Assembly (NCBI GenBank): GCA_017560095.1
Contig: JAFYOU010000005.1
Span: forward strand, 1-39,753
Origin: Candidatus Gastranaerophilales bacterium
GTDB lineage: Bacteria > Cyanobacteriota > Vampirovibrionia > Gastranaerophilales > Gastranaerophilaceae
Reading direction: 5' to 3'
Length of the DNA stretch: 39,753 nucleotides
Of the stretch, positions 5,314-31,929 are shown in pieces (the stretch's first letter is position 1; each line of letters opens with the position of its first letter). The translations under genes and the position numbers were made by a program. The notes beneath the pieces are model-generated. The model worked only from the letters and a program-made list of their open reading frames with translations. It was not told where the DNA came from and ran no database searches.

Positions 5314-6078
5314 CTATACTTCTTGTGCATCAATTGAATCAAAATGTGCACGTGCTTGAGATTGTATTAATTTGCCTTTAATGAAATTGCTTTTAGTTTT
5401 TTCTTCAATATCTTTTGCTAAACTATCAGCAAGCTTAAGTTGCGCCAAGGATGAAGCTCCAATTATACCTAATGGAGCAAAGGCGCCAAATGTATCAATT
5501 GCTTTGGCATGCTTTGTTGTAAAAGGCAATACTTTTTCTTCAACAAGTTTACCTAAGCTTGTTGAGTTGATTTCTTTTGCCAATTGGCCTGCTTCTTTTT
5601 TAAGGAAGTTTGAAGCTTTTGAATTTTTGAGCGCTACTGCACCAAGTGCTATTGCACCAGCTCCAAGAGCAATTTTTGCTATAGTTTTTAAAACTTTTTT
5701 TGAAGCATTTTCATCATCTTGTTTTTTATTGCTTTCAATAATTTTATCACCAACAACATTAACTACTTTTGATAGAGCTAAAAAACCCAACCCTGCTGCA
5801 GCTTTTGCCGCTAACTTCCCAGGTTGGGTTAATGCTATTGTAGTTCCTATTAATGCTGTAGTTATTTCAGGCACTGCCTTAAATAATCGCATTTTATTGC
5901 TTTCTTGCACTTCCTCATGCGCTTTTAAAACGCTTCGCAGGGCTAAAAGCTCGTCACTCATCTGCTCATAATGCTTGTATCGCACTTTTCTTTCTGGAGA
6001 GTTATTTTTTTCTTCCCCTTTAAATGAAATATATCGGTTCGGTTTGCAACAATTAATTGTTGTTTCGCTGATTTTCAT
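5314..6078 (-). CDS. Unknown protein with N-terminal SFKG motif and Ala/Gly-rich hydrophobic helices
   Basis: The likely start is the ATG at 6078, which has AAGAGGA five bases upstream; an in-frame ATG 27 bases further out has no such site. The 254-residue product begins MKISETT and has ISFKG at about residues 19-23, then a charged helix. Hydrophobic Ala/Gly-rich segments follow at about 70-95, 130-155 and 200-220, with Lys-rich linkers between them. They could be membrane-associating or packing helices. No family is recognised. It lies directly upstream of the secreted nuclease gene and shares the SFKG-type N-terminus with other accessory proteins in the window. Confidence 0.8.
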   Translation of the reverse strand: MKISETTINCCKPNRYISFKGEEKNNSPERKVRYKHYEQMSDELLALRSVLKAHEEVQESNKMRLFKAVPEITTALIGTTIALTQPGKLAAKAAAGLGFLALSKVVNVVGDKIIESNKKQDDENASKKVLKTIAKIALGAGAIALGAVALKNSKASNFLKKEAGQLAKEINSTSLGKLVEEKVLPFTTKHAKAIDTFGAFAPLGIIGASSLAQLKLADSLAKDIEEKTKSNFIKGKLIQSQARAHFDSIDAQEV

Positions 6079-6208
6079 TTTTCCTCTTGAGAACTTTGTT
6101 CCCATTCTGTTATCTTATAAGTTTATTTTATATCACTTTTTTATTAAAGCAATAGATTGTAAAGAAAAGTTCATATATTAATATTATAAAACACATATTG
6201 AATCATTA

Positions 6209-6217
6209 TGATATAAT
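6209..6217 (+). promoter_or_regulatory. Extended -10 promoter of the homocitrate synthase-like/miaB operon
   Basis: TGaTATAAT is a perfect extended -10 element. It would place the transcript start near 6224, about 20 bases before the ribosome binding site and ATG at 6246. This argues against an upstream in-frame start at 6198, which would lie before the promoter. Confidence 0.65.
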
Positions 6218-6245
6218 ACTTATACTAGTTAATTTTAGAGGCATT

Positions 6246-7550
6246 ATGAACTATATTAAATTTGTTGATGTTACTAACAGAGATGGTGTACAAACTTCAA
6301 GACTTGGTCTTGCAAAACTTCAAAAAACAATTATTAATTTAATGTTAAATGAAATGGGTATAACTCAAAGCGAGTTTGGTTTTCCAACTACAAAGCATGA
6401 ATTAAATTATTTAAATGGAAATTTAGAGCTTGTTGAGCGTGGTGTTATTAATAAAACACGTCTTTCTGGTTGGATGAGAGCAATCAAGAGTGATGTTGTT
6501 GAATCATTTAAAAATGTTCCCAAATTGCAATATATCAACATGTCTCAATCAACTTCAGATCAAATGATTAATGGAAAATACCAAGGTAAAAAAGATAGAG
6601 CTGGAGTTTTAGAAGATACCCTTGAAGCAATAAATGAAGCAATTAATCAAAACGCAAAAGATATTGGGGTAAATGCTGAAGATGCATCTCGTTCTGATCT
6701 TGATTATTTAATTGAATACGCTAAAAAATGTAAACAATATGGTGCAACTCGTTTTAGATATTGTGATACTTTAGGTTATGATGATCCTCAAACTGCGTAT
6801 GATAGAATTTATGCAATAGCAAAAGAATCAGGAATGCAAATGGAAATGCATTTTCATAATGACCTTGGAATGGCTACAGCTTGTTCTGTTATGGGTGCAA
6901 AAGCTGCAATTGATGCTGGAGTTGACGCTTGGATTAACACTGCAATTAACGGCATGGGAGAACGTGCTGGTAATGCTGATTTAGTTTCTTGTATACTTGC
7001 AATTCTTAAATCAAGTGGATTTAAAGATAAATATCAAATCGATCCTCAAATTGATATATCAAAAGCTTGGAAATTGGCTAAATATACAGCTTATGCTTTT
7101 GGTGTTCCAATTCCAATGAATCAAGTGGCGGTTGGCGCTAATGCATTTGCCCATGAGTCAGGAATTCATGCTGATGGCGCTTTAAAAGATAGAAGAAATT
7201 ATGAGCTTTATGATTTTGAAGAATTAGGAAGAGGTGAACCGGAAATCATTGAAACCGGTCGTATGATAACAGTTGGTGAATACGCTGGAATTAAAGGTTT
7301 TAGAAACGTATTTAATAGCTTAGAGCTTGAATTCCATGATGATAATGAAGCAAGAAATATTCTTGAACTTGCTCGCTACGCTAACGTTCATACTCAAAAA
7401 CCGCTAACTGATAGTGAATTAAAGTTTATTTATTATTATCCAAATATTGCAGCAAAAATTATGACTGTAAATCCATACTATATGCCACAAGGAGCACTGA
7501 AAGAGCGTATGGAAAGATATGAAAATGTTGCTGGAAGTGCAATAATCTAA
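6246..7550 (+). CDS. Homocitrate synthase / isopropylmalate synthase family (NifV-like)
   Basis: A 434-residue enzyme of the DRE-TIM metallolyase family, which condenses acetyl-CoA with a 2-oxoacid. Visible motifs are VTNRDGVQ (9-16), AEDASRSD, RYCDTLGY, the metal-binding HFHNDLGMA (202-210), NGMGERAGNADL, and HESGIHADG with RRNYE and LGR, which are typical of NifV/homocitrate synthase. No nif genes are nearby, so the true substrate (2-oxoglutarate, or another 2-oxoacid for lysine, leucine or cofactor synthesis) is open. The start at 6246 has AGAGG just upstream. miaB follows after nine bases, so the two form an operon. Confidence 0.87.
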   Translation: MNYIKFVDVTNRDGVQTSRLGLAKLQKTIINLMLNEMGITQSEFGFPTTKHELNYLNGNLELVERGVINKTRLSGWMRAIKSDVVESFKNVPKLQYINMSQSTSDQMINGKYQGKKDRAGVLEDTLEAINEAINQNAKDIGVNAEDASRSDLDYLIEYAKKCKQYGATRFRYCDTLGYDDPQTAYDRIYAIAKESGMQMEMHFHNDLGMATACSVMGAKAAIDAGVDAWINTAINGMGERAGNADLVSCILAILKSSGFKDKYQIDPQIDISKAWKLAKYTAYAFGVPIPMNQVAVGANAFAHESGIHADGALKDRRNYELYDFEELGRGEPEIIETGRMITVGEYAGIKGFRNVFNSLELEFHDDNEARNILELARYANVHTQKPLTDSELKFIYYYPNIAAKIMTVNPYYMPQGALKERMERYENVAGSAII

Positions 7551-7559
7551 GGAAGAGAT

Positions 7560-8867
7560 ATGAAAAAATTATTTATAGATACACTAGGTTGCCAAATGAA
7601 TAAATCAGATACCGAAAGGATAATCGGTATGTTATCTCATTTTGGATATGAAACAACTCAAGATGAATATGAAGCTGATTTGTTTATAGTAAATACTTGT
7701 GCAATTCGTCAGTTATCTGTAGATAAAGCATATTCTCGACTTGGCTATTGGGGAAAAATCAAGCGAGAAAAAAAAGAAGAACGAGATATCAAAATTGCAA
7801 TTTGCGGTTGTGTTTCAAACTTAGAAAAAGAGCAACTTCTTAAAAAGTTTCCTTATTTAGATTTGGTTTTTGGAACAAGGAACATATATGAGCTTCCAAA
7901 ATTGTTAGGGCAAATTGAAGAAAAAAGACTTTGTGCTTTAGATGATATGCCGATTAATGAGAACGATTATAGAATTGAGCGTGATAAATCGACTAATGCA
8001 TGGCTACCTATTATGGAAGGATGTAATAATTTTTGTTCATATTGTGTTGTTCCATACACAAGAGGTAGAGAACGTTCAAGAAGCATTGAAGCAATTTTGG
8101 CCGAAGCAAAAAATATTTTAAAAGAAGGTTTTAAAGAAATTACGCTTTTAGGACAAAATGTAGATAGTTACGGTAAAAATCTTGAAGGTAAACCGAATTT
8201 TGCTCAACTTTTAAAAGCATTAGATAAATTAGATGGTGAATTTAGAATCAGATTTACTTCTTCTTATCCGACTGATATTACAGATGAAGTTATTGAGGTT
8301 GTAAAAAACTCGCGCCATATTTGCGAATGTTTTCATATTCCAATGCAATCTGGAAATGATAGAATTCTTCGTGCGATGAATAGAAGATATAATGTTGAGC
8401 AATATCGAGAAATTGTAACTAAAATTAGAAATAATATTAAAGATGTTACAATAACATCTGATTTTATTGCAGGTTTTCCCTCAGAAACAAGCGAAGAATT
8501 TTTAGATACAATTAAAGCGATAGATGAATTAGGTCTAGATTATTCAAATACAGCAGCATATTCTCCTCGTCCATTAACAAAAGCAGGCAAGATGGTTGAT
8601 GATTTTATTGACGAAGATGAAAAGAAAAAACGTCTTGCGATTTTGAATGACAAAGTAAAAGAAGCACATTTAAAATCTAATGAAAAATATATTGGAAGAA
8701 CTCTTGAAATTTTAATTGATGAAGTTAAAGATGGGGTTTTCCAAGGAAGAACAAGAAACAATAAAGTGGTGCACTTAGAAGATAACAAAGAATATCAAAT
8801 TGGCCAATTTGTTAATGTTGAAATTAAAAGAGTAACAACTTGGTGTATGTTTGGGGAAAGTGTTTAG
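7560..8867 (+). CDS. miaB: tRNA-2-methylthio-N6-dimethylallyladenosine synthase
   Basis: A radical SAM methylthiotransferase that adds the 2-methylthio group at position 37 of tRNAs reading U-starting codons. The N-terminal UPF0004 domain supplies the auxiliary cluster cysteines Cys11, Cys47 and Cys84. The radical SAM motif is MEGCNNFCSYC (Cys155, 159, 162). A TRAM domain closes the C-terminus (about 370-435). The 435-residue length and GRERSR motif are typical. It starts nine bases after the homocitrate synthase-like gene with AAGGAAGAG as ribosome binding site. MiaB rather than MtaB or RimO is favoured by the CQMNKSDTER opening. Confidence 0.95.
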   Translation: MKKLFIDTLGCQMNKSDTERIIGMLSHFGYETTQDEYEADLFIVNTCAIRQLSVDKAYSRLGYWGKIKREKKEERDIKIAICGCVSNLEKEQLLKKFPYLDLVFGTRNIYELPKLLGQIEEKRLCALDDMPINENDYRIERDKSTNAWLPIMEGCNNFCSYCVVPYTRGRERSRSIEAILAEAKNILKEGFKEITLLGQNVDSYGKNLEGKPNFAQLLKALDKLDGEFRIRFTSSYPTDITDEVIEVVKNSRHICECFHIPMQSGNDRILRAMNRRYNVEQYREIVTKIRNNIKDVTITSDFIAGFPSETSEEFLDTIKAIDELGLDYSNTAAYSPRPLTKAGKMVDDFIDEDEKKKRLAILNDKVKEAHLKSNEKYIGRTLEILIDEVKDGVFQGRTRNNKVVHLEDNKEYQIGQFVNVEIKRVTTWCMFGESV

Positions 8868-8883
8868 CTTTTAATAATATTTA

Positions 8884-9531
8884 TTAGAAACCAAAACCAG
8901 TCTTATCATTGTTTTGTTTATGAAATTCTCCACCAGCACAAACAATTTCAATAACTTTTAAAAGAAATTCCCTTGAAGCGTCTAATTGGCTAATGAGTAT
9001 TTCTTGATTTCCTTTATGGCGAATTGTCATAATTGTATTTTGATTTTTTTCGGCGGGTACATATAAAGATGCTATTTCGTTTTCTAGTAAAATATCCATT
9101 TGTTTTTCATAATCATCTTTTTCTTTGATTAATTTTGTAAAATCGCCGTTTATTGCAAAAATTCTCCCACAAAACAACGGGGTCCCATTTTTTTGAGGAA
9201 AGGCTTTTGGAGAGTTATTAAATCTACAAGTAAAACTAATTTTGTGCCATAAGACATCAACAATTGCCAAAGTTTTTGTTGAATCAAAAGTGCATTTAAC
9301 ATTTTGAACGGGTATATTTCTTACATTCAATGATTGTTTAAGGTAATCCAAGACGGTTGCCAAATTATCAAGAATTTTTGAAAACATATCGTTAGTGTTA
9401 ACAGTTGCTTGATGAAACTCGATAAATTGCTTGTACATATATACAGCAACCAACCCTGCTCTTTGCTGAACAACGGATGATTTTTGTACTTGTAACTCTA
9501 AATTATCAAGGCTATTGAAATTGTTTTGCAA
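8884..9531 (-). CDS. Protein of unknown function, 215 residues
   Basis: The start is probably the TTG at 9531 with AAGGA about 11 bases upstream, as no nearby ATG fits. The sequence is mostly soluble, with no signal peptide or membrane span. The N-terminal 85 residues look helical. A mixed middle part (VKCTFDSTKTLAIVDVLW; NGTPLFCGRIFAING) is followed by a helical end. No family is recognised. It converges on miaB with a 16-base gap and no evident terminator. About 130 bases of AT-rich DNA separate it from the deaminase gene upstream; I see no site there. Confidence 0.7.
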   Translation of the reverse strand: MQNNFNSLDNLELQVQKSSVVQQRAGLVAVYMYKQFIEFHQATVNTNDMFSKILDNLATVLDYLKQSLNVRNIPVQNVKCTFDSTKTLAIVDVLWHKISFTCRFNNSPKAFPQKNGTPLFCGRIFAINGDFTKLIKEKDDYEKQMDILLENEIASLYVPAEKNQNTIMTIRHKGNQEILISQLDASREFLLKVIEIVCAGGEFHKQNNDKTGFGF

Positions 9532-9662
9532 CTTAAACTAATTCCTTATATTGGGGATATCCATCAAAATAATATAATAAAGCGAGAGTATTTTATATAA
9601 TAATATAACTTTTTGTTACATTTTTAAATACATGTTTTAAATTATATTTCTACTATATAATT

Positions 9663-10766
9663 TTAAGTGATTTTATAACCTTGTTCGAATTTTTTAGGAA
9701 GATATTCGCCTATTGTTGTAATTAGAATATAGTTTTTAAAGTTTAAAACCAACAAAGAGTCATTTGAAGCATATTTTTGACGAATTCTGCCCAAGCTTTT
9801 AATTGATACAACGCCATCGTTGTGTATTTCGTTACTATTTGATGATATTTCATCTCCAAAATATGCAATAGCTTTTATATTTGTTTCTTTTTTGTGTTTT
9901 TCAATTGCGCAAGAAGCGGCAGATTCCAATGGTTCCACATACCATCTTTTTGTCCAATCAATTTTGCTAGAAGAGAAGACTTCGTTATTTGAAATAATTG
10001 AAGCTGCAACCTTTTGATTTGAAACATTAGTGTATTCGTTTGTTTGATATTTTTTATAAGCTTCATTTAATAATTCAAGCGCATCTTTTGGTTCTAGTTT
10101 AAATTTAACAAATGAAATTTGAGAATTTTTTGAAAATCTGATTTCTTTGTTAAAATCAAATTCATTTGAAGTAGCATATGTTTTATATGGTAAAAAACTA
10201 GCCAGTCTGGAAGCTCTTACAACTAATTCTCCTTGTGTTCTTTCGAACGAAAAAACTAAAGTATTGAAATTGAAATAACGATTTGTGTTGAGCCAGCTCA
10301 TGCAATCTTCGCAAGGTGCGATCATTTCTGTAATTTCATTTAGATCAATATTGGAAGCCATACAAAGATATTTGACTTTGAAATCAAATTTTCCTCTTGG
10401 TCGTCTAGAGTATCTAATGAGAGCTTCATTGTATGCGGTTAAAATCGCACTTCTTTCGCCACAGATAGAAGAGATATCGTTTCTTGTATTGTTAAAGTTT
10501 GTGCCCATTGACCAAGCTCGATCAACCGTGCAAACATTTGTTGCAAATCCTCTGCCTGTAATGTTTCCAGCTAAAACATTAATTTTAGCAAACTCATGAG
10601 CTTCTAAAAGTTTTTCAACAATAATATACCTTTCTCCTAGTCCCAACTGTATATTGTCATCTGACACAAATGGTGTATTTAAGATATTCATTCCATATTT
10701 AACTAATAGGGAGTTTTCTGTGTTTGTTGAAAAATCAGAATTGTTGTTAATCGAATTTGTGCTCAT
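9663..10766 (-). CDS. Tandem cytidine deaminase-fold protein with degenerate second domain
   Basis: A 367-residue protein with two cytidine deaminase-like halves. The first has a complete active site: CGERSA (Cys102 zinc ligand, Glu104 proton shuttle) and PCEDC (Cys152, Cys155). The second half (about 225-345) keeps the outline, with EPLESAAS at 278-285 in place of CGE and SLGRIRQ (324-330) in place of PCGxCRQ. All three zinc ligands are lost (Pro, Leu, Ile). Escherichia coli Cdd has the same plan of active plus inactive domain. The sequence is divergent, so the substrate may be cytidine, a modified nucleoside or something else. No clear ribosome binding site is seen. A hairpin at 10819-10843 separates it from upstream minus-strand elements. 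Confidence 0.82.
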   Translation of the reverse strand: MSTNSINNNSDFSTNTENSLLVKYGMNILNTPFVSDDNIQLGLGERYIIVEKLLEAHEFAKINVLAGNITGRGFATNVCTVDRAWSMGTNFNNTRNDISSICGERSAILTAYNEALIRYSRRPRGKFDFKVKYLCMASNIDLNEITEMIAPCEDCMSWLNTNRYFNFNTLVFSFERTQGELVVRASRLASFLPYKTYATSNEFDFNKEIRFSKNSQISFVKFKLEPKDALELLNEAYKKYQTNEYTNVSNQKVAASIISNNEVFSSSKIDWTKRWYVEPLESAASCAIEKHKKETNIKAIAYFGDEISSNSNEIHNDGVVSIKSLGRIRQKYASNDSLLVLNFKNYILITTIGEYLPKKFEQGYKIT

Positions 10767-10818
10767 ACCAATATAAAACCACTGAAAAAATAATTTGTCA
10801 TGTAAATAGATAAAAATT

Positions 10819-10843
10819 AATCCACTTGTGAATCAAGTGGATT
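10819..10843 (-). terminator. Terminator-like hairpin upstream of the deaminase gene
   Basis: A perfect ten-base-pair stem (AATCCACTTG with CAAGTGGATT) has a five-base loop. On the minus strand it is followed by TTAATTTTTA, so it could end a transcript coming from the small elements upstream. Confidence 0.65.
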
Positions 10844-10869
10844 TTCCCAAATCTAGTAGTTAACCTAAT

Positions 10870-11034
10870 TTAAACTTTTTTCGTTAATAATCTTAAAAAA
10901 ATTAATCTAATCATTCCTAAATACGTTAATGTGTATTTTAAGCCATCACTCCTTCCGTAAAACGTTACGTTGTTTGCTTCTTGACTATATTTATATTTTA
11001 GCCTTTTAGGTTTTACATGCAAGAAATATGTATG
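10870..11034 (-). other. Orphan open frame with protein-like C-terminus
   Basis: A frame of 54 sense codons, open between two stops on the minus strand. No ATG starts it; TTG at 11022 would give 50 residues. The translation is well ordered: a basic start, then SQEANNVTFYGRSDG, then a hydrophobic/basic tail (LIFLRLLTKKV). GGAAGGAG lies inside it at about 10960, followed by an ATG in another frame that stops after two codons. It may be a gene remnant, a small protein with a TTG start, or a transcribed leader. I do not recognise it. Confidence 0.35.
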
Positions 11035-11127
11035 TTAAAAAAGTTTTACAATGCCCGTGTGATAGTTATGTTGCAGTCAAATTCGAATTTACAAACTTAA
11101 TATATTGACTTTTTCTTGACAAACTAG

Positions 11128-11168
11128 AAGACAAGAGCACGCTTGTTTTTTCAGCATGCTCTTGTCTT
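11128..11168 (-). other. 15-bp stem-loop, RNA-like on the minus strand
   Basis: A 15-base-pair stem (11128-11142 with 11154-11168) has an 11-base loop. One position is C/A on the plus strand but G-U on the minus strand, so the structure is complete only in a minus-strand RNA. It lies 20 bases after the stop of the 39-codon ORF. No clear U-tract follows, so it is either a poor terminator or a structured small RNA element. Confidence 0.5.
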
Positions 11169-11188
11169 TCATCCAGATATACCTTTAT

Positions 11189-11308
11189 TTAAAAACTTAA
11201 TTCTTTTAAATATAAATCAAAATTGATTTCTTCACTAAAACCTAATTCTCCATTTCCTTGGATTTCAGTTGGTTTAATTTCATTTAATTCTAAAAGTTCA
11301 TTATTCAT
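11189..11308 (-). CDS. 39-residue acidic peptide gene with strong ribosome binding site
   Basis: An ATG at 11308 is preceded by AAGAGGT at ideal spacing and opens a 39-codon frame ending TAA at 11189. The peptide starts MNNELLELNEI, has an NGELGF centre and ends LYLKELSF. It is strongly acidic, with no Cys, no signal peptide and no membrane span. Codon usage matches neighbouring genes. The clear site and clean frame make translation likely. A regulatory or leader peptide, or a precursor of a modified peptide, are possible roles, but no modification enzyme is adjacent. It stands upstream of the hairpin at 11128-11168 and divides the deaminase gene from the chromate transporter operon. Confidence 0.5.
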   Translation of the reverse strand: MNNELLELNEIKPTEIQGNGELGFSEEINFDLYLKELSF

Positions 11309-11379
11309 TTTTACCTCTTGAGTTACGTTGCTATTTATATAAAGTATATATTCCTTATATAATTGCCACTTATTGCTTT

Positions 11380-11937
11380 TTATTTAACAAAGCTTAATAA
11401 TGCGCCGATAAAAGCAGAGATAATAATATAAATAATAGGATTTCTTTTTAATTTAAATGTTAAAATAAAGAGAAATAAAATTAACACAAACGCAAAATAA
11501 TCTATATTTTTTAGTGTTATATCATGTTTAAAAATTAAATCATAGAACAAGTGTATTCCTACAGAGGCTATTAGTGCACAGGATGTTGGCCTTAAAATAT
11601 ATAAAATTGACTTTACAATTTTATTTTCGCTAAATTTCAAGTAAGCTTTAAAAATTTGAGTTGTTATGATTATCATAGGTAAAATTAAAGCAATGCTTGA
11701 TATAGATGCTCCAAAAAAACCTAGGGCTTTAAAGCCTGCATATGTTGCCATATTTAAACCAACAGGGCCGGGTGTGATTCCTGAAATTGCTATCATTTGG
11801 GTTAATTCATTTAATGAAAACCAATGATGTGTGTCAATCATTTCATATAAAAATGGCAAAGATGCATATCCGCCACCAAAGGTGAACAAGCCAACTTTTA
11901 CGAATTCAAAAAATAGTAAAATATATGCATTAAGCAT
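11380..11937 (-). CDS. Chromate transporter family half-protein (second subunit)
   Basis: A 185-residue CHR-domain protein with five or six membrane spans. Family marks are FTFGGGYASLPFL (18-30) and ITPGPVGLNMATYAGFK. Long ChrA proteins contain two such domains in one chain; here they are split into two genes that overlap by eight bases, as in short-chain CHR pairs that work as hetero-oligomers. The family exports chromate in some bacteria, but the physiological substrate here is unknown and may be another anion. It is last in an operon of three genes (12475-13092, 11930-12475, this gene). Confidence 0.92.
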   Translation of the reverse strand: MLNAYILLFFEFVKVGLFTFGGGYASLPFLYEMIDTHHWFSLNELTQMIAISGITPGPVGLNMATYAGFKALGFFGASISSIALILPMIIITTQIFKAYLKFSENKIVKSILYILRPTSCALIASVGIHLFYDLIFKHDITLKNIDYFAFVLILFLFILTFKLKRNPIIYIIISAFIGALLSFVK

Positions 11938-13092: not shown

Positions 13093-13151
13093 TATAATTC
13101 CTCCCAATAAAATAAAGATACAATAAAATTTAGAATTGGCAAAATTGTAAA

Positions 13152-14042: not shown

Positions 14043-14048
14043 AAATTA

Positions 14049-14054: not shown

Positions 14055-14056
14055 CA

Positions 14057-15338: not shown

Positions 15339-15350
15339 TATTGCCTTTCT

Positions 15351-20110: not shown

Positions 20111-22141
20111 CTAAATTTCTTCATCTTGCCTTGAATCAGCTAAATACAGCAATTCCAGCTTCTTGCTACTTTTACTAGAATCAAAAACTCCTTCACTCCA
20201 GCCATTAAATGCATCAAGATATGTCATCTTGTAGTTCATATCCCCTAAAATCCTAAGGTAATCCATTTCAATTACGCTTATTTCTTTATCATTAACATCA
20301 TTAAAGTTTGTGCCTATTAAAATTGGTATATTTTCATTAGACAAGGTTTTTAAAAGATTAATGCAATATCTTATTACTTCATTTAAAAACTTATCGCTCG
20401 CATCGTCAGACATTTTATATTTATTTGCTATTTCAATGTTATCAATTATAAATTTGGGCTCGTTCATCTCATCAAATGCAAAATAACAAAGTGCATTTCC
20501 AATTGTTTCACCTGTCGAATTATCAACAAATTCAATCATATTAAACATTGTACTTAATAAATAAGTTGGCATTGCAATGCCATTTGTTTCACCCAAGCCA
20601 ATACAACAGGTTGAATAATTCCCCTGAAATAAATCGTGAATTGGGTTTCTGTCCCACATTTTAATTGTTAAATCAATAGTCTTTTCTTTCTTTTTAGTTT
20701 CACATTTAGAAATGTCTTTCAATCTTTGTTCTAGATGATTTTTAATAGTTAAAGATAACTGCGCATTTTTATTTTTATCCGGATTATCTAAATTCATTTG
20801 AGCTCTAGAGAAAACATTTCTATCCAAAAGCTCAAACACGCCTTTTGTAAATACCTCCAAAGTTTGCTTATCTTTTTTATATTTATCGGCAATTTTAAAT
20901 TTTCCATCTATAATGCAGTCGCTAAAATGTTTATCGATAAAATTTTTAGCAGGAGTTTTTCTTAAAGCTTCAATATCTTCTTCGATTTGACCAACAATTT
21001 GAGCTAACATTGTTTGGTTTATATCAATATATTTAAATTGAACTTCGCAATCTTTAGGAGGGTTTAGCCAATTTTCATAATTTAAACCATATTGTTCAAA
21101 CTTTTCTTTTGTGGCAAAGTTTGTTGTTTCAAAATAATTTTCGCCTTGAATATAAGTTTTAAAATCTTTACCAAAATTTATAGCCCTGATAATATAACTC
21201 AACGAATTGTCGCCATCATCAAAAAATGTTCGTTTTTGCAAAGCTAAAAGATGCGCATAATTAATATCCCATTTTGAAATTATTTCTTTTGGAATCGAAT
21301 CAATTTCTTTATCTTCCATTCCACAAAATTTGAAAACTTGTTTTAATAAATCTTTTTCTAAGGCTTCAATATCGATTTTATCTGTTGGTTTAATTTCGCC
21401 TATATTGACATTGCAAGCTTCATATCCTGCAATGATATTTAATAGCGCAAGTTTTTCTTTTGGTGAAAGTTCCTTTCCTTGCGCATTTTTACAATTAAAC
21501 ATTTCTTTTAGAAGTTTTTTTGAAGAATCTTTTAAATCTATAAATCTTTCAAAAATGCCTGCAGCATTATCTATTCTTTTTCTGAAAATAAATTCCATAG
21601 TATTTTTGTCAAAAGTATTTGCAACTTCAGCTAAAATATCTTGATATGTAAAAACATAATCATATATCTCTTTTTTTGCTTCTTGAGTATCTTTAGCCTC
21701 TCCATTAATATATAATTCAGGATTAAGTATAATCATTTGATAGACTTCATTGAATTTTTTTATGCCAGAATAAAAGTTTTCATCTTCGCAATATTCGCAT
21801 TCGGAAATTACATCAATAAAAAATCTATCTCTAAAATCTATTGGAAAATCTGGGTGTTTTCTGAAATATTCTAAAGCTTTTTGTATTTTTTCAAGGTATT
21901 CTTCTCTTATGTAATCTTTAACAGCATCTATATTAATCCGTTGTGCTAAAAGTTCTTTTTCTAGTTTTTGCCTCAAAAGTTCTTCATCAGTTTTACCCCT
22001 AAAAGAAAGATTTAAACATTTTATAGCAGAACAATAAGAACTTGAAAAATTATCAAATTGAACATAAGGGTTTCTTTGTTCTTTATGGTTTTCAAATATT
22101 TTTGGGGAGTTGTTAGCAAAATTTATATTGCGAATTTTCAT
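20111..22141 (-). CDS. Large unknown protein with N-terminal SFRG motif
   Basis: A 676-residue, soluble-looking protein. It starts MKIRNINFANN and has LSFRG at 45-49, matching the N-terminal signature seen in other accessory proteins here. Residues 52-480 are mostly charged helices. A more conserved-looking C-terminal domain (about 495-650) holds MWDRNP, LFQGNYSTCC (504-513) with a Cys-Cys pair, FVDNSTGETIGNALCYF, FIIDNIEIANKY and LIGTNFNDV. Its strand and helix order recalls an acetyltransferase-like (GNAT) fold, but I cannot confirm this and name no function. No Shine-Dalgarno sequence is evident. About 95 bases separate it from glcK, with no terminator seen. Confidence 0.75.
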   Translation of the reverse strand: MKIRNINFANNSPKIFENHKEQRNPYVQFDNFSSSYCSAIKCLNLSFRGKTDEELLRQKLEKELLAQRINIDAVKDYIREEYLEKIQKALEYFRKHPDFPIDFRDRFFIDVISECEYCEDENFYSGIKKFNEVYQMIILNPELYINGEAKDTQEAKKEIYDYVFTYQDILAEVANTFDKNTMEFIFRKRIDNAAGIFERFIDLKDSSKKLLKEMFNCKNAQGKELSPKEKLALLNIIAGYEACNVNIGEIKPTDKIDIEALEKDLLKQVFKFCGMEDKEIDSIPKEIISKWDINYAHLLALQKRTFFDDGDNSLSYIIRAINFGKDFKTYIQGENYFETTNFATKEKFEQYGLNYENWLNPPKDCEVQFKYIDINQTMLAQIVGQIEEDIEALRKTPAKNFIDKHFSDCIIDGKFKIADKYKKDKQTLEVFTKGVFELLDRNVFSRAQMNLDNPDKNKNAQLSLTIKNHLEQRLKDISKCETKKKEKTIDLTIKMWDRNPIHDLFQGNYSTCCIGLGETNGIAMPTYLLSTMFNMIEFVDNSTGETIGNALCYFAFDEMNEPKFIIDNIEIANKYKMSDDASDKFLNEVIRYCINLLKTLSNENIPILIGTNFNDVNDKEISVIEMDYLRILGDMNYKMTYLDAFNGWSEGVFDSSKSSKKLELLYLADSRQDEEI

Positions 22142-23032: not shown

Positions 23033-23038
23033 AACTAA

Positions 23039-23226: not shown

Positions 23227-23235
23227 ATGCTTTAG

Positions 23236-23350: not shown

Positions 23351-23413
23351 GAGGCTCGAACTCCCGACATCTTCCTTGTAAGGGAAGCGCTCTACCAACT
23401 GAGCTAAACGCCC
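23338..23413 (-). tRNA. tRNA-Val (TAC), CCA encoded
   Basis: A full cloverleaf on the minus strand: acceptor GGGCGTT with AACGCCC, D arm with TTAGCTCAGTTGGTAGAG, anticodon stem CTTCC/GGAAG with loop CTTACAA (anticodon TAC), T arm CGGGAGTTCGAGCCT, discriminator A and an encoded CCA. tRNA-Met in the same window has no encoded CCA. The stem and anticodon loop match the bacterial tRNA-Val pattern. Confidence 0.95.
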
Positions 23414-23463
23414 TTGCGTAATATCTATATTACACTATCAAGTTTTGTTGTCAAGTATTTTTA

Positions 23464-25281: not shown

Positions 25282-25389
25282 CTATAAATCTCTTTTTTCT
25301 TGCCATCTTTAGATATTATTACATAAAAAATTTTATAAGGCTTTTTGTAACTTAATTTGTAAAGATTTTATTAATTTTATTTTTTAAAA

Positions 25390-25395
25390 TATAAT
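25390..25395 (+). promoter_or_regulatory. TATAAT box upstream of the TPR gene
   Basis: TATAAT lies 14 bases before the ATG at 25410, so the predicted leader is only about eight bases and has no good Shine-Dalgarno sequence. No clear -35 box is seen. Confidence 0.5.
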
Positions 25396-25409
25396 GTTTG
25401 TGATGGGTT

Positions 25410-25802
25410 ATGAAGCAAAAGATACTTAGAGAATATTATCAAATAATTAAAAGTAAAATTAGTCAGTCGCATTTTGAAACAGCAATGATTAACATAGACA
25501 AGCTTCTTTATAATTTCCCTAAAGATGAACATGGGTATTATTATAAGGGTGTTTGCGAATTTGCAACAAATAATCATAAAAATGCAATAAAATATTATAA
25601 TGCTGCGATTAAGATAAATCCTGCTTATGCTAAGGCTTATTTTAATCTTGGCGTTGTTTATTATATTTATAGACAATATGATTTAGCTTTGATTAATATT
25701 GGCAAAGCTCTTGTTATTTTTTCAAAGCAAAAAGAATTAGATAAAAAACAAAGATGTATTGATGCGCTAAAATTAATAGAAAAAGAAAGAGGCGCTATTT
25801 AA
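25410..25802 (+). CDS. TPR repeat protein
   Basis: A 130-residue protein built of tetratricopeptide repeats. Helix pairs are visible at about 8-36, 41-68 (GYYYKGVCEFATNNHKNAIKYYNAAIKINP) and 74-103 (AKAYFNLGVVYYIYRQYDLALINIGKAL). It has no signal peptide and is probably a cytoplasmic scaffold. Its stop codon overlaps the start of the histidine kinase (TAATG), so it may tune or localise that kinase. The link rests on gene order only. Confidence 0.85.
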   Translation: MKQKILREYYQIIKSKISQSHFETAMINIDKLLYNFPKDEHGYYYKGVCEFATNNHKNAIKYYNAAIKINPAYAKAYFNLGVVYYIYRQYDLALINIGKALVIFSKQKELDKKQRCIDALKLIEKERGAI

Positions 25803-26779
25803 TGAATATTATAGTTGTGCTGATAAGTTTACTATTTATTTTAATTGTTATTTTGCTGGCTTTGGTGTTGATTGTTAAACATGCTAATTTGTGTGTAAAA
25901 TACAATCGTCTGTCGAGATATTTATATAATTATTTAAATGTTATTATTTCGGCTCGTTATGGAAATTTAAATTCTAAATGCGAAGATGGCATTGATGCTT
26001 TAACTATTCAATTATCAAAAAATACAAATGCATTATTGGAAAGTGTATTTGACAGAGATTCAATGATAAATGAATATATTGAAAAGGAAAAACAAACCCA
26101 AAGTATCAAACAAGATTTTATTTCAAGTTTAGCGCATGATTTAAAAGTTCCAATTATAGCTCAAGATAATACATATGATTTGTTTTTGAATGGGAATTTT
26201 GGTGAATTATCAGAAGTTCAATATTCTGCAATTAAAAATCTTAAAATTTCAAATAATGATTTAAAAAATTTAGTTTTAGATTTATTGGATGTTTATAAAT
26301 TAGATAGGCAAGAACTTAATCCAAAAGTAAAAGAAGTTAACTTAAATAAGATTATTGGTGAAATTATTGAGCAAAACAAAAGTATATTAACTATACAAAA
26401 CAAAGAAATTGTATTTAAGCAAGAATGTGAAATAAATTATCCGCTTGATTCTTTTTTGTTTAAGCGAGTGTTAAATAATTTAATATCTAATGCTATTTTT
26501 TATGGCAAAAATACAAAGTATATAACCTTATCTTTAGAGAGAAAGCAAAATAATGTCGTAATCTCTGTTTCTGATGAAGGGGAAGGTATTAAAGAAAAAG
26601 ATATTAATAAAATTTTTAAAAAATATTATACATCTGCAAAAAAATATTCAAACATTGGTGTTGGGCTAGGTTTATATATTGCAAATAAGATTGTTCTGGC
26701 TCACAATGGAGAAATTATTGCAAAAAATAATAAAGAAAAAGGTGCAACTTTTAGTATTGTTTTGCCTTTTAAAAATTGA
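25802..26779 (+). CDS. Sensor histidine kinase, single N-terminal membrane span
   Basis: A 325-residue kinase. One hydrophobic span at 3-25 is followed by a short cytoplasmic linker, so there is no large sensor domain outside the cell. The HisKA phosphoacceptor is His112 in SSLAHDLKVPI. The ATPase domain has the N box NLISNAIFYG, G1 SDEGEGI and G2 GVGLGLYIANKI. No response regulator is adjacent; the window's only one is at 34637. Translation is coupled to the TPR gene by TAATG, and the Xer gene follows 12 bases later. Confidence 0.9.
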   Translation: MNIIVVLISLLFILIVILLALVLIVKHANLCVKYNRLSRYLYNYLNVIISARYGNLNSKCEDGIDALTIQLSKNTNALLESVFDRDSMINEYIEKEKQTQSIKQDFISSLAHDLKVPIIAQDNTYDLFLNGNFGELSEVQYSAIKNLKISNNDLKNLVLDLLDVYKLDRQELNPKVKEVNLNKIIGEIIEQNKSILTIQNKEIVFKQECEINYPLDSFLFKRVLNNLISNAIFYGKNTKYITLSLERKQNNVVISVSDEGEGIKEKDINKIFKKYYTSAKKYSNIGVGLGLYIANKIVLAHNGEIIAKNNKEKGATFSIVLPFKN

Positions 26780-26785
26780 TAAAAT
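26777..26785 (+). promoter_or_regulatory. Extended -10 box six bases from the Xer GTG start
   Basis: TGaTAAAAT begins at the kinase stop codon and ends six bases before GTG at 26792. No Shine-Dalgarno sequence is present. It predicts a leaderless transcript for this recombinase, in addition to any readthrough from the kinase. Confidence 0.55.
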
Positions 26786-26791
26786 TGATTT

Positions 26792-27667
26792 GTGAGCAAT
26801 ATAGAAGGAACAATTTCACAGCATATTTCAGATTATCTTGCTTATCTTGAATTAGAGCGAGGTTTATCGCAAAATACAATTTTGGCTTATCAAAGTGATT
26901 TAATTGCTTTTTTTGATTATATTGAAAAAGACGTAGAATTGAATGAATTAAAAAGAAAAGATTTCTCATCGTATACAAAATATTTGGCAAGAAATGAAAT
27001 AAATCCATCTACAATCACAAGAAAAATCGCTTCAATTAAAGGTTTTTTTAAATATCTTTGTTATAAAAGAATTATTAAAGCAAATCCTTCAAGTTCTATT
27101 ACTCCGCCAAAGCTGCCTAGAAGATTGCCTAAGATTTTAACTATATCAGAGCTTGATAAAATTTTAAAAGAAAAACTTGATTTAGTTGATTTTGCAATGG
27201 TTGAACTATTATATAGCGCAGGAATAAGAGTCAGTGAATTAACAGAGCTTGAGCTTAAAAATTTAGACTTAGCTCAAAATATGATAAAAGTTTTTGGTAA
27301 AGGCTCAAAAGAGCGTCTTGTTCCAATAGGAAAAAAATGTAGTGCTACATTAAAAGAATATCTTAAAAAAAGAGAATTGATTGCATTAAGATATAATTCA
27401 AAACCGTATTTGTTTTTAAATTCAAATGGTACGAAAATTACTCGTCAAAAGGTTTATAAGATAGTTCATTCTTTGGGTAATATTGTTGGAAAAAATATTT
27501 CTCCACATACAATTCGTCATTCTTTTGCAACACATTTGCTTGAAAATGGTGCTGATTTAAGAGTTGTTCAAGAACTTTTGGGCCATTCTAGTATTGTTAC
27601 AACTCAATTATATACACATATTTCAAAGAAAACTTTAAGAGAAGTTTATTTTAAGATTAATGGGTAA
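26792..27667 (+). CDS. xerD: Tyrosine recombinase, XerD/XerC type
   Basis: A 291-residue Xer recombinase with a GTG start. The core-binding domain spans about 5-92. Catalytic residues are Arg in AGIRVSEL, Lys in GKGSKER, His-x-x-Arg in HTIRHSF, His in LGHSS and Tyr in LYTHIS. The HLLENGADLRVVQELLGH stretch is XerD-like. Together with the gene at 13152-14042 it gives the window a plausible XerC/XerD pair for dif recombination; which is which is uncertain. No dif-like site was identified. The end converges with the NUMOD1-like gene, with six bases between the stops. Confidence 0.88.
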   Translation: MSNIEGTISQHISDYLAYLELERGLSQNTILAYQSDLIAFFDYIEKDVELNELKRKDFSSYTKYLARNEINPSTITRKIASIKGFFKYLCYKRIIKANPSSSITPPKLPRRLPKILTISELDKILKEKLDLVDFAMVELLYSAGIRVSELTELELKNLDLAQNMIKVFGKGSKERLVPIGKKCSATLKEYLKKRELIALRYNSKPYLFLNSNGTKITRQKVYKIVHSLGNIVGKNISPHTIRHSFATHLLENGADLRVVQELLGHSSIVTTQLYTHISKKTLREVYFKING

Positions 27668-27673
27668 AGGGTT

Positions 27674-28582
27674 TTATTTTCTAAATCTAGATTTTACAAA
27701 TTCTTGAATTTTGTTGTCGTCAATTGCAAAATTGTTATTTTCATCAAACACAACATCGTTATTTGCATCTAGTGCAACAATATCGCTAAGGCGAACAAAA
27801 AAGAAATTTTCGCTAATTATTCTTCCGGTATTTAGTGAACTATAAATATCTCTTCTTTTGCGGTTTGTATCTAGGGCAGCTTCTTGTGCATTTGCATATT
27901 GTTTAATATTACCTTTTGAATCAATTTTGGCTATTGGAAAATTTTTTGCATAAAGGAAATTCTCTCTTAATTTATTTATTTTTTTTCTATCTATCATTTG
28001 TCGCCCATTTTTATCTTTTAGCAGAGCTCCAGACTCATCTCTTAAGTCAACGTCAAAAGCTCGGATTGCAACATAGCCTTTTACTGTGCCTTTGTTTTGA
28101 TTTAAAAGCTCTGAAATTTGTGATTGGCTTATATTTAATTTTTTTATAGCTTGAGTTAGTTTATCAAATCTATGCATTGTTCCATGGATGTCTATTATAT
28201 ATATTGGTTGGTTACTTGCAACTTTGAAGCCTAAAAGCAGTTTTTTTAAAGCTTGGGGATTGATTGTACCATCCTTTTCTTCTAAAGTATCTGCATAAGC
28301 AAATACTGTGCCATTAGAAGCACTAGTTATTCCATTTAATGTGTTATTGATGTTGCTAATGTTGAATGCGTTACAAGCATCTTTTACACTTTCGAATTTT
28401 TGATAGCTCCCGTCATATTTCATTGCATATACAGCTCTTTTGCCAAAAGCTAAATTGTAACTTGCAATACAATTTAATCCATTTAAAGATACGAAATTTT
28501 GCTTTTTTTGTACAGTTGTATTTGGTTTATCTGATTTTTTTGTTGGTTGATACGAGTATATTTTGCTAAAGTTAATTTTCAT
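27674..28582 (-). CDS. Protein with three NUMOD1-like repeats and no nuclease domain
   Basis: A 302-residue protein. It starts MKINFSKIYS, with VSLNG (31-35) and LAFGKRA (44-50) resembling the SFKG signature of neighbouring accessory proteins. Three repeats of about 50 residues follow (50-99, 126-176, 216-268). Each has a short beta hairpin, as in PIYIIDIHGTMHRF, then two helices, as in KLTQAIKKLNISQSQISELLN, and a final strand. This is the layout of NUMOD1, a DNA-binding module normally attached to homing endonucleases. No GIY-YIG or HNH motif is present, so sequence-specific binding without cutting is a plausible but unproven role. It converges on the Xer gene. Confidence 0.75.
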   Translation of the reverse strand: MKINFSKIYSYQPTKKSDKPNTTVQKKQNFVSLNGLNCIASYNLAFGKRAVYAMKYDGSYQKFESVKDACNAFNISNINNTLNGITSASNGTVFAYADTLEEKDGTINPQALKKLLLGFKVASNQPIYIIDIHGTMHRFDKLTQAIKKLNISQSQISELLNQNKGTVKGYVAIRAFDVDLRDESGALLKDKNGRQMIDRKKINKLRENFLYAKNFPIAKIDSKGNIKQYANAQEAALDTNRKRRDIYSSLNTGRIISENFFFVRLSDIVALDANNDVVFDENNNFAIDDNKIQEFVKSRFRK

Positions 28583-28728
28583 ATTTTTATAAAAAACGTG
28601 AAAATATTTTGTGTTGAAACTTTTGAGTTTGCAAACTAAATTATTAACAAATGTTAAAAAAAATGATTATGTGCGAATTTTTTTATTTACAAGTATTATA
28701 AGAATACAAACATTAAAAGGAATTAAAA

Positions 28729-29326
28729 ATGAAATTATCCCCAGTATCATTTAATTTAAATAAACAAGTTAAAAATAATAAAACCCAAAATCAACCAAGC
28801 TTTAAAGCAGTTTGGAGCAAAGAAACCATTGAAAATGCAAGACAGGTTAGCAAGGAAACCGAAGTTGATGTTTTGGCAAAATTAAAGTTTTTTAGATAGT
28901 AATCCGAAATTAAAGGAATTTGGTGGGGATAGAGTAGAATTATCTATAGGAGCAAAAGAATATAAACGTTCTAATCATATAGCTTGTTTTGCAAGTGTAA
29001 CCATGCCTGATGGTAGTGATAAACGCAAAGCAAAATATACTTTAGAATATCCAGGATGTAGTACTAATGGATTTGCTAGGTTTCCAAGTGAAAGAGAGAT
29101 TTTAATGCACATTGCAAAAGGTGATTGCGCGATAGAAAATGAAGTAAAGGATATTATTAATAAATTTCAGCCTTTTGATGATATGTTAGAAAAATTCTCT
29201 CAACAAATTGAAAGTGATAAAAAGAGTTTAATTGAAAAAGAATGCGCTGCAGAATTAAAAAGAAGGTTAAAAACTGAAGTACCAGCTATGCGTGAAAAAC
29301 TGAGTAAATATCTTGGTGAATCATAA
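28729..29326 (+). pseudogene. Frameshifted accessory gene with N-terminal SFKA motif
   Basis: An ATG at 28729 with AAAAGGA upstream opens a frame (MKLSPVSFNLN ... PSFKAVW) that ends at TAG (28897-28899), just after a run of six T at 28888-28893. The sense frame continues one base out of step as LDSNPKLKEFGGDRVELS and runs to TAA at 29326. Removing one T restores a single 198-residue protein. The later part has a glycine- and lysine-rich middle (MPDGSDKRKAKYTLEYPG) and a helical C-terminus with a coiled-coil look. No family is recognised. The break may be a real mutation, slippage or an assembly error. Taking only the ATG at 29003 as a start would miss the true N-terminus. Confidence 0.75.
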
Positions 29327-29344
29327 CCAATTCTTATGATTTTA

Positions 29345-29353
29345 TGTTAAGAT
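29345..29353 (+). promoter_or_regulatory. Extended -10 box six bases from the bioA start
   Basis: TGtTAAGAT is followed by six bases and the ATG at 29360. No Shine-Dalgarno sequence is present. This favours the ATG at 29360 over the TTG at 29354. Confidence 0.5.
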
Positions 29354-29359
29354 TTGTTT

Positions 29360-30709
29360 ATGACAATAGATTGGCAAAAAGAAGATTTAGCTCACATTTG
29401 GCATCCTTGTTCTCAAATGAAAGATTATGAAGAGCTTCCACCAATTGTAATTGAGCGTGGTGATGGGGTTAATCTTTATGATATTAATGGAAAATGCTAT
29501 AAAGACGTAGTTTCTTCATGGTGGTGTAATTTATTAGGCCATTGTAATCCTGTTATTTCAAATCGCTTAAAAGAGCAAGCAGATAATCTTGAACATGTTA
29601 TCTTTGCTAATTTTTCTAATAAGCCTGTAATTGAACTTTGTATGAGATTAAAAAAACTTTTGCCAAATGGATTAAGTAAGTTTAATTTTGCAGATAATGG
29701 TTCAAGCTCAATTGAAATGGCTATGAAAATAAGTTTTCAATATTTTCAACAAGTAGGCTTGCCTCAAAAAAAGAGATTTATGGCATTGACTGATGCTTAT
29801 CATGGTGAAACTATAAGTGCATTATCTGTTGGCGATTGTGATTTATATACAAAAATTTATAAACCGATTTTAATGGATGTAATTAGAATCAAAGCTCCTG
29901 ATTGTTATCGTTGTCCTTATGGAGAATGTCGAGATAATTGCCAATGCGAATGTTTTTGTGATTGCGAAGAGCAATTTGAAAAGTATGGAGCTGAAACTTG
30001 TGCAATTTTAGTTGAGCCATTGCTTCAAGGAAGTGCTGGCATGAAAATATACCCTGCTTTATATCTTAAAAAATTAAGAGAAATTTGTGATAAATATAAT
30101 GTTCATTTAATTTTAGATGAAATTGCAACAGGTTTTTTAAGAACTGGTAAAATGTTTGCTTGCAATCATGCGAATATTGCCCCTGATATTATGTGTGTTT
30201 CAAAGGGTTTAACAGGAGGCTATATGCCAATGGCAATTGCTATAACAACTGATAAAATTTATAACGCATTTTATGATGATTATAATACTTATAAAGCTTT
30301 TATGCATTCGCATACATATAGTGGAAATCCTTTAGGGGCAAGTTGCGCTTTGGGAGTATTAGATATTTTGGAAACTGGCAAAATTCAAGAGCAGCTTAAA
30401 GAAACAACTCTATATTTCAATGAAATAATAAAAGAAAAATTTTTAAATCATAAAAACGTGGGCGAAGTTCGCTCTATTGGCTTAATTAATGCAATTGAAC
30501 TTGTTAAAGACAAAAAAACAAAAGAAACGTTTGAACCCAGCTTAAGAATTGGATATCAAATTTATAAAAAAGCTCTTCAAAAAGGAGTCTTGTTAAGACC
30601 TTTGGGAAATGTGATTTATTTTAATCCGCCATTGATAATCGATAAGCCTGATATGGATTTTGTGGTTGATGTTGCTTATCAAAGTATGAGCGAAGTTTTA
30701 TCCTATTAA
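29360..30709 (+). CDS. bioA: Adenosylmethionine-8-amino-7-oxononanoate aminotransferase
   Basis: BioA converts 7-keto-8-aminopelargonate to 7,8-diaminopelargonate in biotin synthesis, using S-adenosylmethionine as amino donor in most versions. Family marks are HIWHPCSQMKDYE near the start, SSWWCNLLGHCNP, DNGSSSIEMAMK, DAYHGETISA, LDEIATGF and the PLP lysine in CVSKGLTGGY. About 449 residues from the ATG at 29360. Unusual is an eight-cysteine cluster in 21 residues (nucleotides about 29903-29965). No other biotin gene lies nearby, so the pathway is scattered or the cell salvages precursors. Confidence 0.93.
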   Translation: MTIDWQKEDLAHIWHPCSQMKDYEELPPIVIERGDGVNLYDINGKCYKDVVSSWWCNLLGHCNPVISNRLKEQADNLEHVIFANFSNKPVIELCMRLKKLLPNGLSKFNFADNGSSSIEMAMKISFQYFQQVGLPQKKRFMALTDAYHGETISALSVGDCDLYTKIYKPILMDVIRIKAPDCYRCPYGECRDNCQCECFCDCEEQFEKYGAETCAILVEPLLQGSAGMKIYPALYLKKLREICDKYNVHLILDEIATGFLRTGKMFACNHANIAPDIMCVSKGLTGGYMPMAIAITTDKIYNAFYDDYNTYKAFMHSHTYSGNPLGASCALGVLDILETGKIQEQLKETTLYFNEIIKEKFLNHKNVGEVRSIGLINAIELVKDKKTKETFEPSLRIGYQIYKKALQKGVLLRPLGNVIYFNPPLIIDKPDMDFVVDVAYQSMSEVLSY

Positions 30710-31295
30710 TTCTATTTTATTTCCTGTGTGCTTTTCGTTATTCGAAATTAAATTACCAAGACGATTATGACTTAATATTGCGCTATCTTTGCCACGGTTT
30801 CTGAAACCGCATTGCTGATAAAAAGTTTTTGTTTTTTCTTTGTCTGCAATATCTGTTATTATTAGGTCTTTGTTTTCGCTTTGTGCTAATGTTGCCAAAA
30901 AAGATAATAAGGTTTCACCAATATATTTTGTTTTTCGATTTGGATTATATAAAGAATGAGCAGGTGCAACTTCAAGTAAAAAAAACTTCTATATTATCTT
31001 CTTTTCTTTCAATTTCAACGCAACCAAGTACTTCTTTGTCATTTTCAAGTGTGTATAGCGAATAGTTTGTGTCATCTAAAGCTTCGGGGCAGAAAGTGAT
31101 AAAATTTTCACTGTAGAAATTTCCATCCCAGTTTCTTGTGTGCAGTGCGTCTTCAAAAGTGTCCATATCTTTGTTTTTATCAAGATGATATATTTGAACG
31201 GGGAATTTTCTTCCATCTTTTTTAATGGAGGCTTTTGCTTTTAAGGTTTTTTGAAAGCTTATGTTGTAAATGTTTTGTTTTAAGGAAATATTCAT
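30698..31295 (-). pseudogene. Frameshifted GNAT-like protein gene (copy 1)
   Basis: A start at 31295 opens MNISLKQNIYNISFQK, with an SFQK variant of the accessory N-terminal motif. It runs to a TGA just after a run of eight T (minus strand) near 30980. One base out of step the frame continues as LLEVAPAHSLYNPNRKTKYIGETLLSFLATLAQ and on to FYQQCGFRNRG, a GNAT acetyltransferase-like end. Removing one T joins the two halves into about 198 residues. The neighbour at 31334-31929 is a paralogue with the same KYIGETL and NEKHTG[NS]KIE segments. The gene is either inactivated, switchable by slippage, or affected by assembly error. Confidence 0.75.
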
Positions 31296-31333
31296 AACTT
31301 AATAAGTTATCTAAATGAAAAAAATTGCTAAGA

Positions 31334-31929
31334 TTATAATAGATATTCTATTTTGGATCCTGTGTGTTTCTCGTTTTGCGAGAGCAATTGTTTTACTGCT
31401 TCTTTTGGAAGAATGTAGTCTGGAGCAATTATTTTTTCTGCTTTTATCATATGGCAATTTCTAGAATAAAAAATTTCTGCTTCACCCAATGCGTTTTCAA
31501 CATGAAGCGCTTTGTTTGCTTTTTGATAATGTAGCGCCAAAAAAGCAATTAAAGTTTCTCCAATGTATTTAGTTTTTCTTTTTTGTTTCCTTCTGCTATA
31601 TTTTGGAACAGTTTCTATTGCTTGTAAGCGTGCCTCAAAAGGCTTAGTGTTGGGATCTACTTCGCAAAAGCTTATACACCTTTGTTTTTCGTCTTCTATT
31701 ACAAAATGGTCTCTGTGGATTAAGTTGCCTTGAGGGCGAGGCTTATCTCCAAAAGAAAAAAAGGAGTTTTTCCAAGCAAGAGTTTTGAGTTTTTTACAAT
31801 AGTAATCTTCATCTCCTTCTTCTAATTTATATATTTTACAGGGAGAGGGTTTGTTGTTCTTTATGATAGTGCAATTTGCAACATGTTTTTTTTTTCAAAA
31901 GTTATATGATTAAAATTATTAAGTTTCAT
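31334..31929 (-). pseudogene. Frameshifted GNAT-like protein gene (copy 2)
   Basis: An ATG at 31929 opens MKLNNFNHITFEKK (TFEK variant of the motif) and runs into ten A (minus strand; T run at 31886-31895), after which this frame stops. With one more A the reading continues unbroken as HVANCTIIKNNKPSPCKIYK through SFCEVDPNTKPFEARL, KYIGETLIAFLALHY and NEKHTGSKIEYLL. That gives a protein of just under 200 residues paralogous to the gene at 30698-31295. The long A run close to the start is the classic layout of a phase-variable gene. GNAT-type N-acetyltransferase activity is inferred from fold-like order, not from a full motif. Confidence 0.75.

Follow-up and report, generated by a model that had tools for sequence, protein, structure and literature searches.

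Do accessory proteins without an obvious common domain share an N-terminal address in the Gastranaerophilales? The question is raised by a 39,753-nucleotide stretch of DNA from a Candidatus Gastranaerophilales bacterium (assembly GCA_017560095.1, contig JAFYOU010000005.1; hereafter the window), in which a first-pass annotation noted the short motif [ST]F[KRQE][GAK] near the start of five such proteins and suggested a targeting, secretion or docking tag. It corresponds to contig C30 of a draft genome of 2.07 Mb (58 contigs), whose RpoB is 88% identical in the best segment to the RpoB of a named Candidatus Gastranaerophilales metagenome-assembled genome. The comparison set consisted of 30 genomes including its own, 18 of the 29 others belonging to the same genus and the remainder being spread over six other families within the order. 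We describe here, as a sequence pattern, a loosely conserved two-part N-terminal protein tag, in which a start segment (Box A) is followed by a spacer and a short motif centred on phenylalanine (Box B). We infer that this is a docking tag read by a receptor, and our leading guess, with a probability of roughly 0.35, is that it serves the export of accessory proteins via a second flagellum-type machine. The hunch behind the first-pass annotation was largely right, although its exact pattern was wrong. Should the tag prove to be an address, some of the accessory genes left unannotated in this common, uncultured gut order would become a defined group for which a single receptor could be sought, and a way in which these non-photosynthetic cyanobacterial relatives may affect neighbours or hosts would come into view.

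A short motif is enriched at the N-termini of soluble proteins

In its literal form the proposed motif is not enriched at N-termini, being present in 5 of 468 proteins compared with 21 of 1900 internal windows in a sample of the same genome. The first-pass annotation had also called for de novo motif discovery and for comparison with shuffled and internal sequences. Expectation-maximisation on all N-termini returned only hydrophobic or charged composition and was replaced by pattern enumeration on soluble N-termini, which ranked a related motif first. The scan used open reading frames (ORFs) of at least 90 amino acids (aa) from stretches of eight Gastranaerophilales genomes (the window's own genome, G001, G003, G008, G010, G023, G024 and G029), obtained with a simple custom caller that makes its own choice of start, so that some are not genes. 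ORFs below 90 aa (below 70 aa in the test of the literal motif) and those without a start or stop within the stretch were left out of the counts, as were, from the scan onward, proteins with a hydrophobic stretch in residues 1-60; small and membrane-leading tagged proteins are therefore missed. This gave 1510 ORFs, of which 1104 have no hydrophobic segment within residues 1-60, and about 650,000 four-position class patterns were compared between residues 5-62 and the remainder of the same proteins. The top pattern, [STN]F[KGR][GAS], was seen 49 times against 12.6 expected (p ~10^-14, uncorrected for the ~650,000 patterns), and most of the next-ranked patterns overlap it, whereas the best patterns in shuffled N-termini and in C-termini reached ~10^-10 and were of different kinds. 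Within residues 4-66 the motif occurs in 49 proteins of this set, which blastp groups into 44 clusters.

To this we added a non-redundant test, for which further stretches and the genome G051 were included and 1945 ORFs were reduced to 1232 clusters and 896 soluble representatives. The motif lies in residues 4-66 of 41 of the 896, compared with a mean of 15.0 ± 3.8 and a maximum of 29 in 1000 shuffles. The reversed motif occurred 16 times and the last 63 residues gave 6 of 688; successive further windows of 63 residues gave 9/741, 6/585 and 12/444, indicating that the motif is at background past residue 66. About 26 of the 41 represent the excess over shuffles, and the core alone cannot separate single cases, those of the window included, from chance. 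Genome-wide counting by DNA patterns was abandoned, its signal being too low over reversed and scrambled controls. The tag itself is matched by no Pfam or NCBIfam family.

Anatomy of the tag

Box A consists of an M-[KQN]-[IVL] start, often with a second hydrophobic residue about three positions later, and this start is found in 16 of the 41 tagged proteins compared with 68 of 855 others, an enrichment that nevertheless concerns a minority. The spacer, of ~0-45 residues, is rich in N and S and poor in acidic residues. Box B opens with a residue that is usually I, L, V or M, sometimes T or P, and continues as [STN]-F-[KGR]-[GAS]. In the 40 of 41 sequences aligned on the phenylalanine, I, L, V or M stands two positions before it in 24; the preceding residue is S (23), N (13) or T (4), and the two following positions are occupied by G (18), K (16) or R (6) and by S (16), G (15) or A (9), respectively. 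The letters therefore depart from those first proposed, since G is as common as K after the F and N is common before it.

Ahead of the motif, N, Q, S and T are abundant, whereas D and E are scarce, in agreement with the first-pass description of this segment. Within residues 2-20 the mean D+E count is 1.10 in tagged proteins and 2.26 in others, with N and S raised but no rise in T, Q, I, K or P. Box B has no fixed distance from the start, falling anywhere in residues 4-60. Among the 5′ ends compared by eye, S, F and G of the motif are encoded by varying codons, which argues that constraint acts on the protein. Membrane segments further in are not in excess (5 of 40 tagged proteins compared with 87 of 855).

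Orthologues mostly keep the tag

The protein encoded at 5314-6078 has a match in 18 of the 30 genomes (its own counted), all within this genus, and no Pfam family above cut-off. By eye, F-[KTLG]-[GANS] is kept in 15 of 17 orthologous N-termini, and in the other two the F is replaced by C or Y; two of the 19 loci (L266 and L268) were left out as a neighbour was shown there instead of the protein. The protein encoded at 20111-22141 has matches in 10 of 30 genomes (again counting its own), several of which cover part of the body only. MKI starts occur in L022, L023, L024 and L025 of this set, and Box B reads ISFKG in L022 and ISFKE in L023, the spacer having diverged in both. A third set, of Hel308-like helicases (NCBIfam) with a patchy distribution over 13 loci, has several starts of approximately the form M-[IL]-x-PI-x-N-[IN]-[ST]-F; by eye, F-[KTG]-[GS] follows an unalignable spacer in eight of the 13, with three changed forms and two unclear starts. 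Selecting homologues on the body first, a broad form of the motif was present in 8 of 31 soluble body-homologues of tagged proteins compared with 97 of 1129 background proteins (p 0.005). Relatives of evident chance hits, for example glycosyltransferases, are among the 23 that lack it. Orthologues thus mostly keep the tag while the spacer diverges. Together, the scan, the clustering, the orthologues and the non-redundant shuffle test support the original proposal of a recurrent, lineage-specific N-terminal tag on unrelated bodies.

Proteins that carry the tag

Of 40 tagged or loosely tagged proteins selected by eye, 11 have a Pfam match above cut-off, comprising two helicases, two AAA and two MORN proteins, an ankyrin protein, an HTH protein, a metallophosphoesterase/5′-nucleotidase, a CheR-like protein and a GH77-like protein. 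The three CheR-like matches in G023 all start with the tag or a loose form (TSFGS, PVFGS and PSFSG). Patchy CheR-like proteins, several on one contig, are found at G012:C25:34607-36844 and G006:C9:29342-31517 and in G023. A housekeeping role for the CheR-like tagged protein was rejected, since such matches are unevenly scattered (0-7 per genome) and far weaker than those of CheR in families f2-f4. At L112:14026-15887 (minus strand) in G029, four tandem relatives are all tag-initial (MLNSINN..SPSFGA or LSFGA). The proteins at L107:9848-12346 (plus), L107:12487 (plus) and L047:4289-6178 (minus) are homologues in which the tag lies ~20-50 residues before a Sec- or lipoprotein-like signal, which is an uncommon arrangement.

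As a possible companion of the tagged genes, a neighbour encoding a small acidic, chaperone-like protein was nominally enriched (6 of 40 compared with 38 of 855, one-sided p 0.011) but was dropped, the six being by eye a mixed set that includes a TPR-like protein, a FlgD-like protein and another tagged paralogue.

Distribution of the tag among genomes

When the strict core was compared between N-terminal and internal windows genome by genome, enrichment was evident in the window's own genome (16/343 against 13/1120, p 0.0002), in G008 (9/306 against 12/1014, p 0.035), in G029 (19/356 against 15/1143, p 0.00005) and in G001 and G003 combined (2/41 against 0/159, p 0.04). Counts in G010 (2/33 against 2/130), G024 (3/34 against 5/133) and G023 (5/218 against 9/729) each gave p ~0.2. 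In other orders the tag was not detected in samples of G047 (2/82 against 5/261) and G054 (1/61 against 4/232). From these counts, the tag is clear in two families (those of this genus and of G029), non-significant in a third (G023) and undetected outside the order; the flagellin-bearing families f9, f10, f14 and f15 of the class lie outside the sample. None of 32 proteins with a homologue in two small samples of other orders is tagged, compared with 41 of the 864 lacking one. Extrapolation from the excess in the window's own genome gives about 40 tagged proteins per genome.

A second flagellum-type machine is probably retained where flagellin is absent

FHIPEP (FlhA-family) proteins were found in 30 of 30 genomes searched. 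The stronger FlhA type, present in 26 of the 30, lies by eye within a fliP-fliQ-fliR-flhB-flhA cluster (L197, L200 and L202). A second full FlhA type is present in 29 of 30, some copies being cut by contig ends, and its gene adjoins flhB, fliE and fliF (Pfam-confirmed in L078) and rod/hook-like genes in L201; the fliG-like neighbour has no Pfam match, and fliH there was named by eye. This second machine is also seen at L198. Its FliE (L198:14614-14937, minus strand; L078:9175-9489, plus strand) has SFKD ~35 residues after an MN-x-IN start, which is loosely tag-like, and FliE of PDB entry 12du aligns TFKD with this SFKD. The third FlhA-family type, a soluble FlhA_C-like protein, occurs in 30 of 30 genomes. 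At L199:9072-10523 (minus) and L097:13538-15019 (minus) it has ~480-540 aa and matches the cytoplasmic half of FHIPEP only, the match being preceded by ~130 N-terminal residues without a Pfam family.

Across 117 genomes of the class, the 25 with two FliP proteins all have flagellin, only three of the 53 with one FliP do, and none of the 39 without FliP does. In other genera of the window's own family, flagellin is missing from all 37 sampled genomes, each of which has one FliP and between one and three rod/hook proteins. To judge from scores and lengths rather than from a tree, the single FliP probably belongs to the second machine, and this machine would thus be retained in family members without flagellin. 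A VirB4-type ATPase (PF03135, the only VirB4 model searched) was found in none of the 30 genomes, and the contractile sheath (PF04984) in none of this genus, although it is present in four of the 30 genomes, which belong to other families. If tagged proteins exit in one step, the second machine would be the sole specialised route found by searches that covered flagellum-type, VirB4 and sheath systems.

Export, docking inside the cell, or an inherited leader

In the reading that we favour, a cytosolic receptor would bind the tag, with Box A supplying a hydrophobic signal at the extreme N-terminus and Box B the site of docking, and the accessory proteins would exit through the order's second flagellum-type machine, kept where flagellin is absent. 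Export is favoured by the position-specific enrichment, the link between Box A and Box B, the low acidity, the retention in orthologues and the constraint at the protein level, as well as by the presence of the second FlhA, the combination of a single FliP with rod/hook proteins in the absence of flagellin, and the lack of VirB4 and sheath. It is further favoured by the early subunits of the flagellum, which, according to PMC8983047, have a similar arrangement of N-terminal hydrophobic signal, unfolded spacer and docking (gate recognition) motif. Several observations weigh against export. Box B starts within 20 residues of the first methionine in 17 of the 41 tagged proteins, unlike the flagellar docking motif, and a hydrophobic residue stands four positions after the F in 14 of 41 only, so that there is no FxxxPhi. 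Helicase, AAA and HTH bodies are of kinds that usually stay inside the cell, and in one tagged family the tag is followed by a Sec- or lipoprotein-like signal. No enrichment was seen in G051, a genome without flagellin from a different genus of the family (1/90 against 5/336; three loose forms were seen by eye), and the G047 sample has no detectable tag even though this genome has FliP. Finally, the strict core in held-out stretches fetched after its discovery was not significant (7 of 227 compared with 4.1 in shuffles, 124 of 1000 of which reach 7); a broader pattern, written after part of these stretches had been seen, gave 12 of 227 against 4.9 (2 of 1000). A stronger version of export, in which a dedicated filament-less machine with the soluble FlhA_C-like protein as receptor would serve tens of tagged effectors per genome, and would represent an undescribed form of type III secretion, strikes us as quite unlikely.

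Almost as likely as export is that the tag acts entirely within the cell, a cytosolic scaffold, chaperone or protease adaptor using it to place, hold or degrade lineage-specific proteins. Such a reader would suit the helicase, AAA, HTH and NUMOD bodies, the co-occurrence of tag and Sec-like signal in one protein, the loose placing of Box B and the ordinary frequency of membrane segments further in; it does not account for the placing of the tag on accessory proteins that diverge fast, and the patchy CheR-like, ankyrin and MORN bodies were judged more like exported effectors. The tandem paralogues among the tagged proteins (four in L112) and the plentiful loose forms would instead suit 5′ ends spread by recombination from a few ancestral leaders, with little or no present function. 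We regard this as unlikely, given the spread of the 49 motif proteins over 44 clusters, the variation of their codons and the retention of Box B beside a diverging spacer in two orthologue sets, the search for shared DNA among the 5′ ends having been by eye only. A short, degenerate motif could also arise by chance in AT-rich genes with N- and K-rich N-termini, and the unenriched literal motif, the non-significant strict core in the small held-out set and evident chance hits among the 41, namely a glycosyltransferase, the carbamoyl-phosphate synthase-like L055 and the ribosomal protein-like L097_15106 (named by eye), all point that way; but with shuffles, the reversed motif, C-termini or most internal windows the count or rate falls well below half, and an unbiased scan ranks the motif first, so that chance as a general explanation is very improbable.

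Comparison with known N-terminal signals

Searches of openly licensed PMC papers turned up no account of a tag of this kind. Signal peptides of the Sec and lipoprotein type and the YSIRK and ESPR extensions resemble the tag in placing a conserved element in an N-terminal extension. The hydrophobic core of a Sec or lipoprotein signal is absent from the counted set by construction, although one tagged family has such a signal further in. Type III effector signals are N-terminal, uncharged or basic and rich in N and S, similar to the tag; no motif common to them is known, whereas the tag set has one. A type IV secretion substrate is not indicated, in view of the lack of PF03135 in the 30 genomes.

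Cargo of extracellular contractile injection systems carries N-terminal loading signals, according to PMC11495950, and is similar in that an N-terminal address is placed on unrelated proteins; the window's genus differs in having no contractile sheath. A further parallel is the early flagellar signal described in PMC8983047, which is likewise N-terminal and combines small hydrophobic residues close to the first position with a spacer that varies and looks unfolded and a motif containing a key F. In that paper, FlgD variants need at least 19, and work better with 30, residues between the two signal elements, a separation that the early-placed Box B motifs contradict; the tag also lacks FxxxPhi and sits on non-flagellar proteins. 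Since two features, spacing and FxxxPhi, are thus absent, the tag is not called a member of the flagellar two-part signal, even though small hydrophobic N-terminal residues are present at the frequency given for Box A.

Tagged genes in the window

All the N-terminal segments quoted in the first-pass annotation are present in the window, but three of its five listed proteins are not intact frames. Those encoded at 5314-6078 and 20111-22141 are intact, as is a sixth, looser candidate at 27674-28582; the frames starting from 28729, 31295 and 31929 are broken.

Features of the tag and its carriers in the window, with positions as counted from its first letter
Feature	Position	Strand	Description	Basis
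Tagged protein	5314..6078	-	254 aa, function not assigned; best instance of the tag	open frame
Box B ISFKG	6016..6030	-	residues 17-21 of the 5314-6078 protein	sequence
Tagged protein	20111..22141	-	676 aa, function not assigned	open frame
Box A MKIRNINF	22118..22141	-	residues 1-8 of the 20111-22141 protein	sequence
Box B LSFRG	21995..22009	-	residues 45-49 of the 20111-22141 protein	sequence
Loosely tagged protein	27674..28582	-	302 aa, NUMOD-like repeats; MKIN start, LAFGK at 28439-28453	intact frame
Broken tagged gene, 5′ part	28729..28899	+	MKLSPVSF start; PSFKA at 28795-28809	
Broken tagged gene, 5′ part	30972..31295	-	MNIS start; ISFQK at 31248-31262	
Broken tagged gene, 5′ part	31861..31929	-	MKLN start; ITFEK at 31891-31905	
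Small frame	38196..38441	+	81 aa; NFGS at residues 9-12	

The loosely tagged protein matches PF22083 over two stretches (Pfam, E 2.6e-10). The small frame near the end of the window has no Pfam family above cut-off and may encode a tagged small protein, although chance also fits. The three broken frames are treated as broken genes or assembly errors and were left unrepaired; the next frame listed downstream of the plus-strand one is 29003-29326. The other two belong to adjoining broken genes on the minus strand (30698-31295 and 31334-31929) with similar ends (NEKHTG-x-KIE), resembling tandem paralogues.

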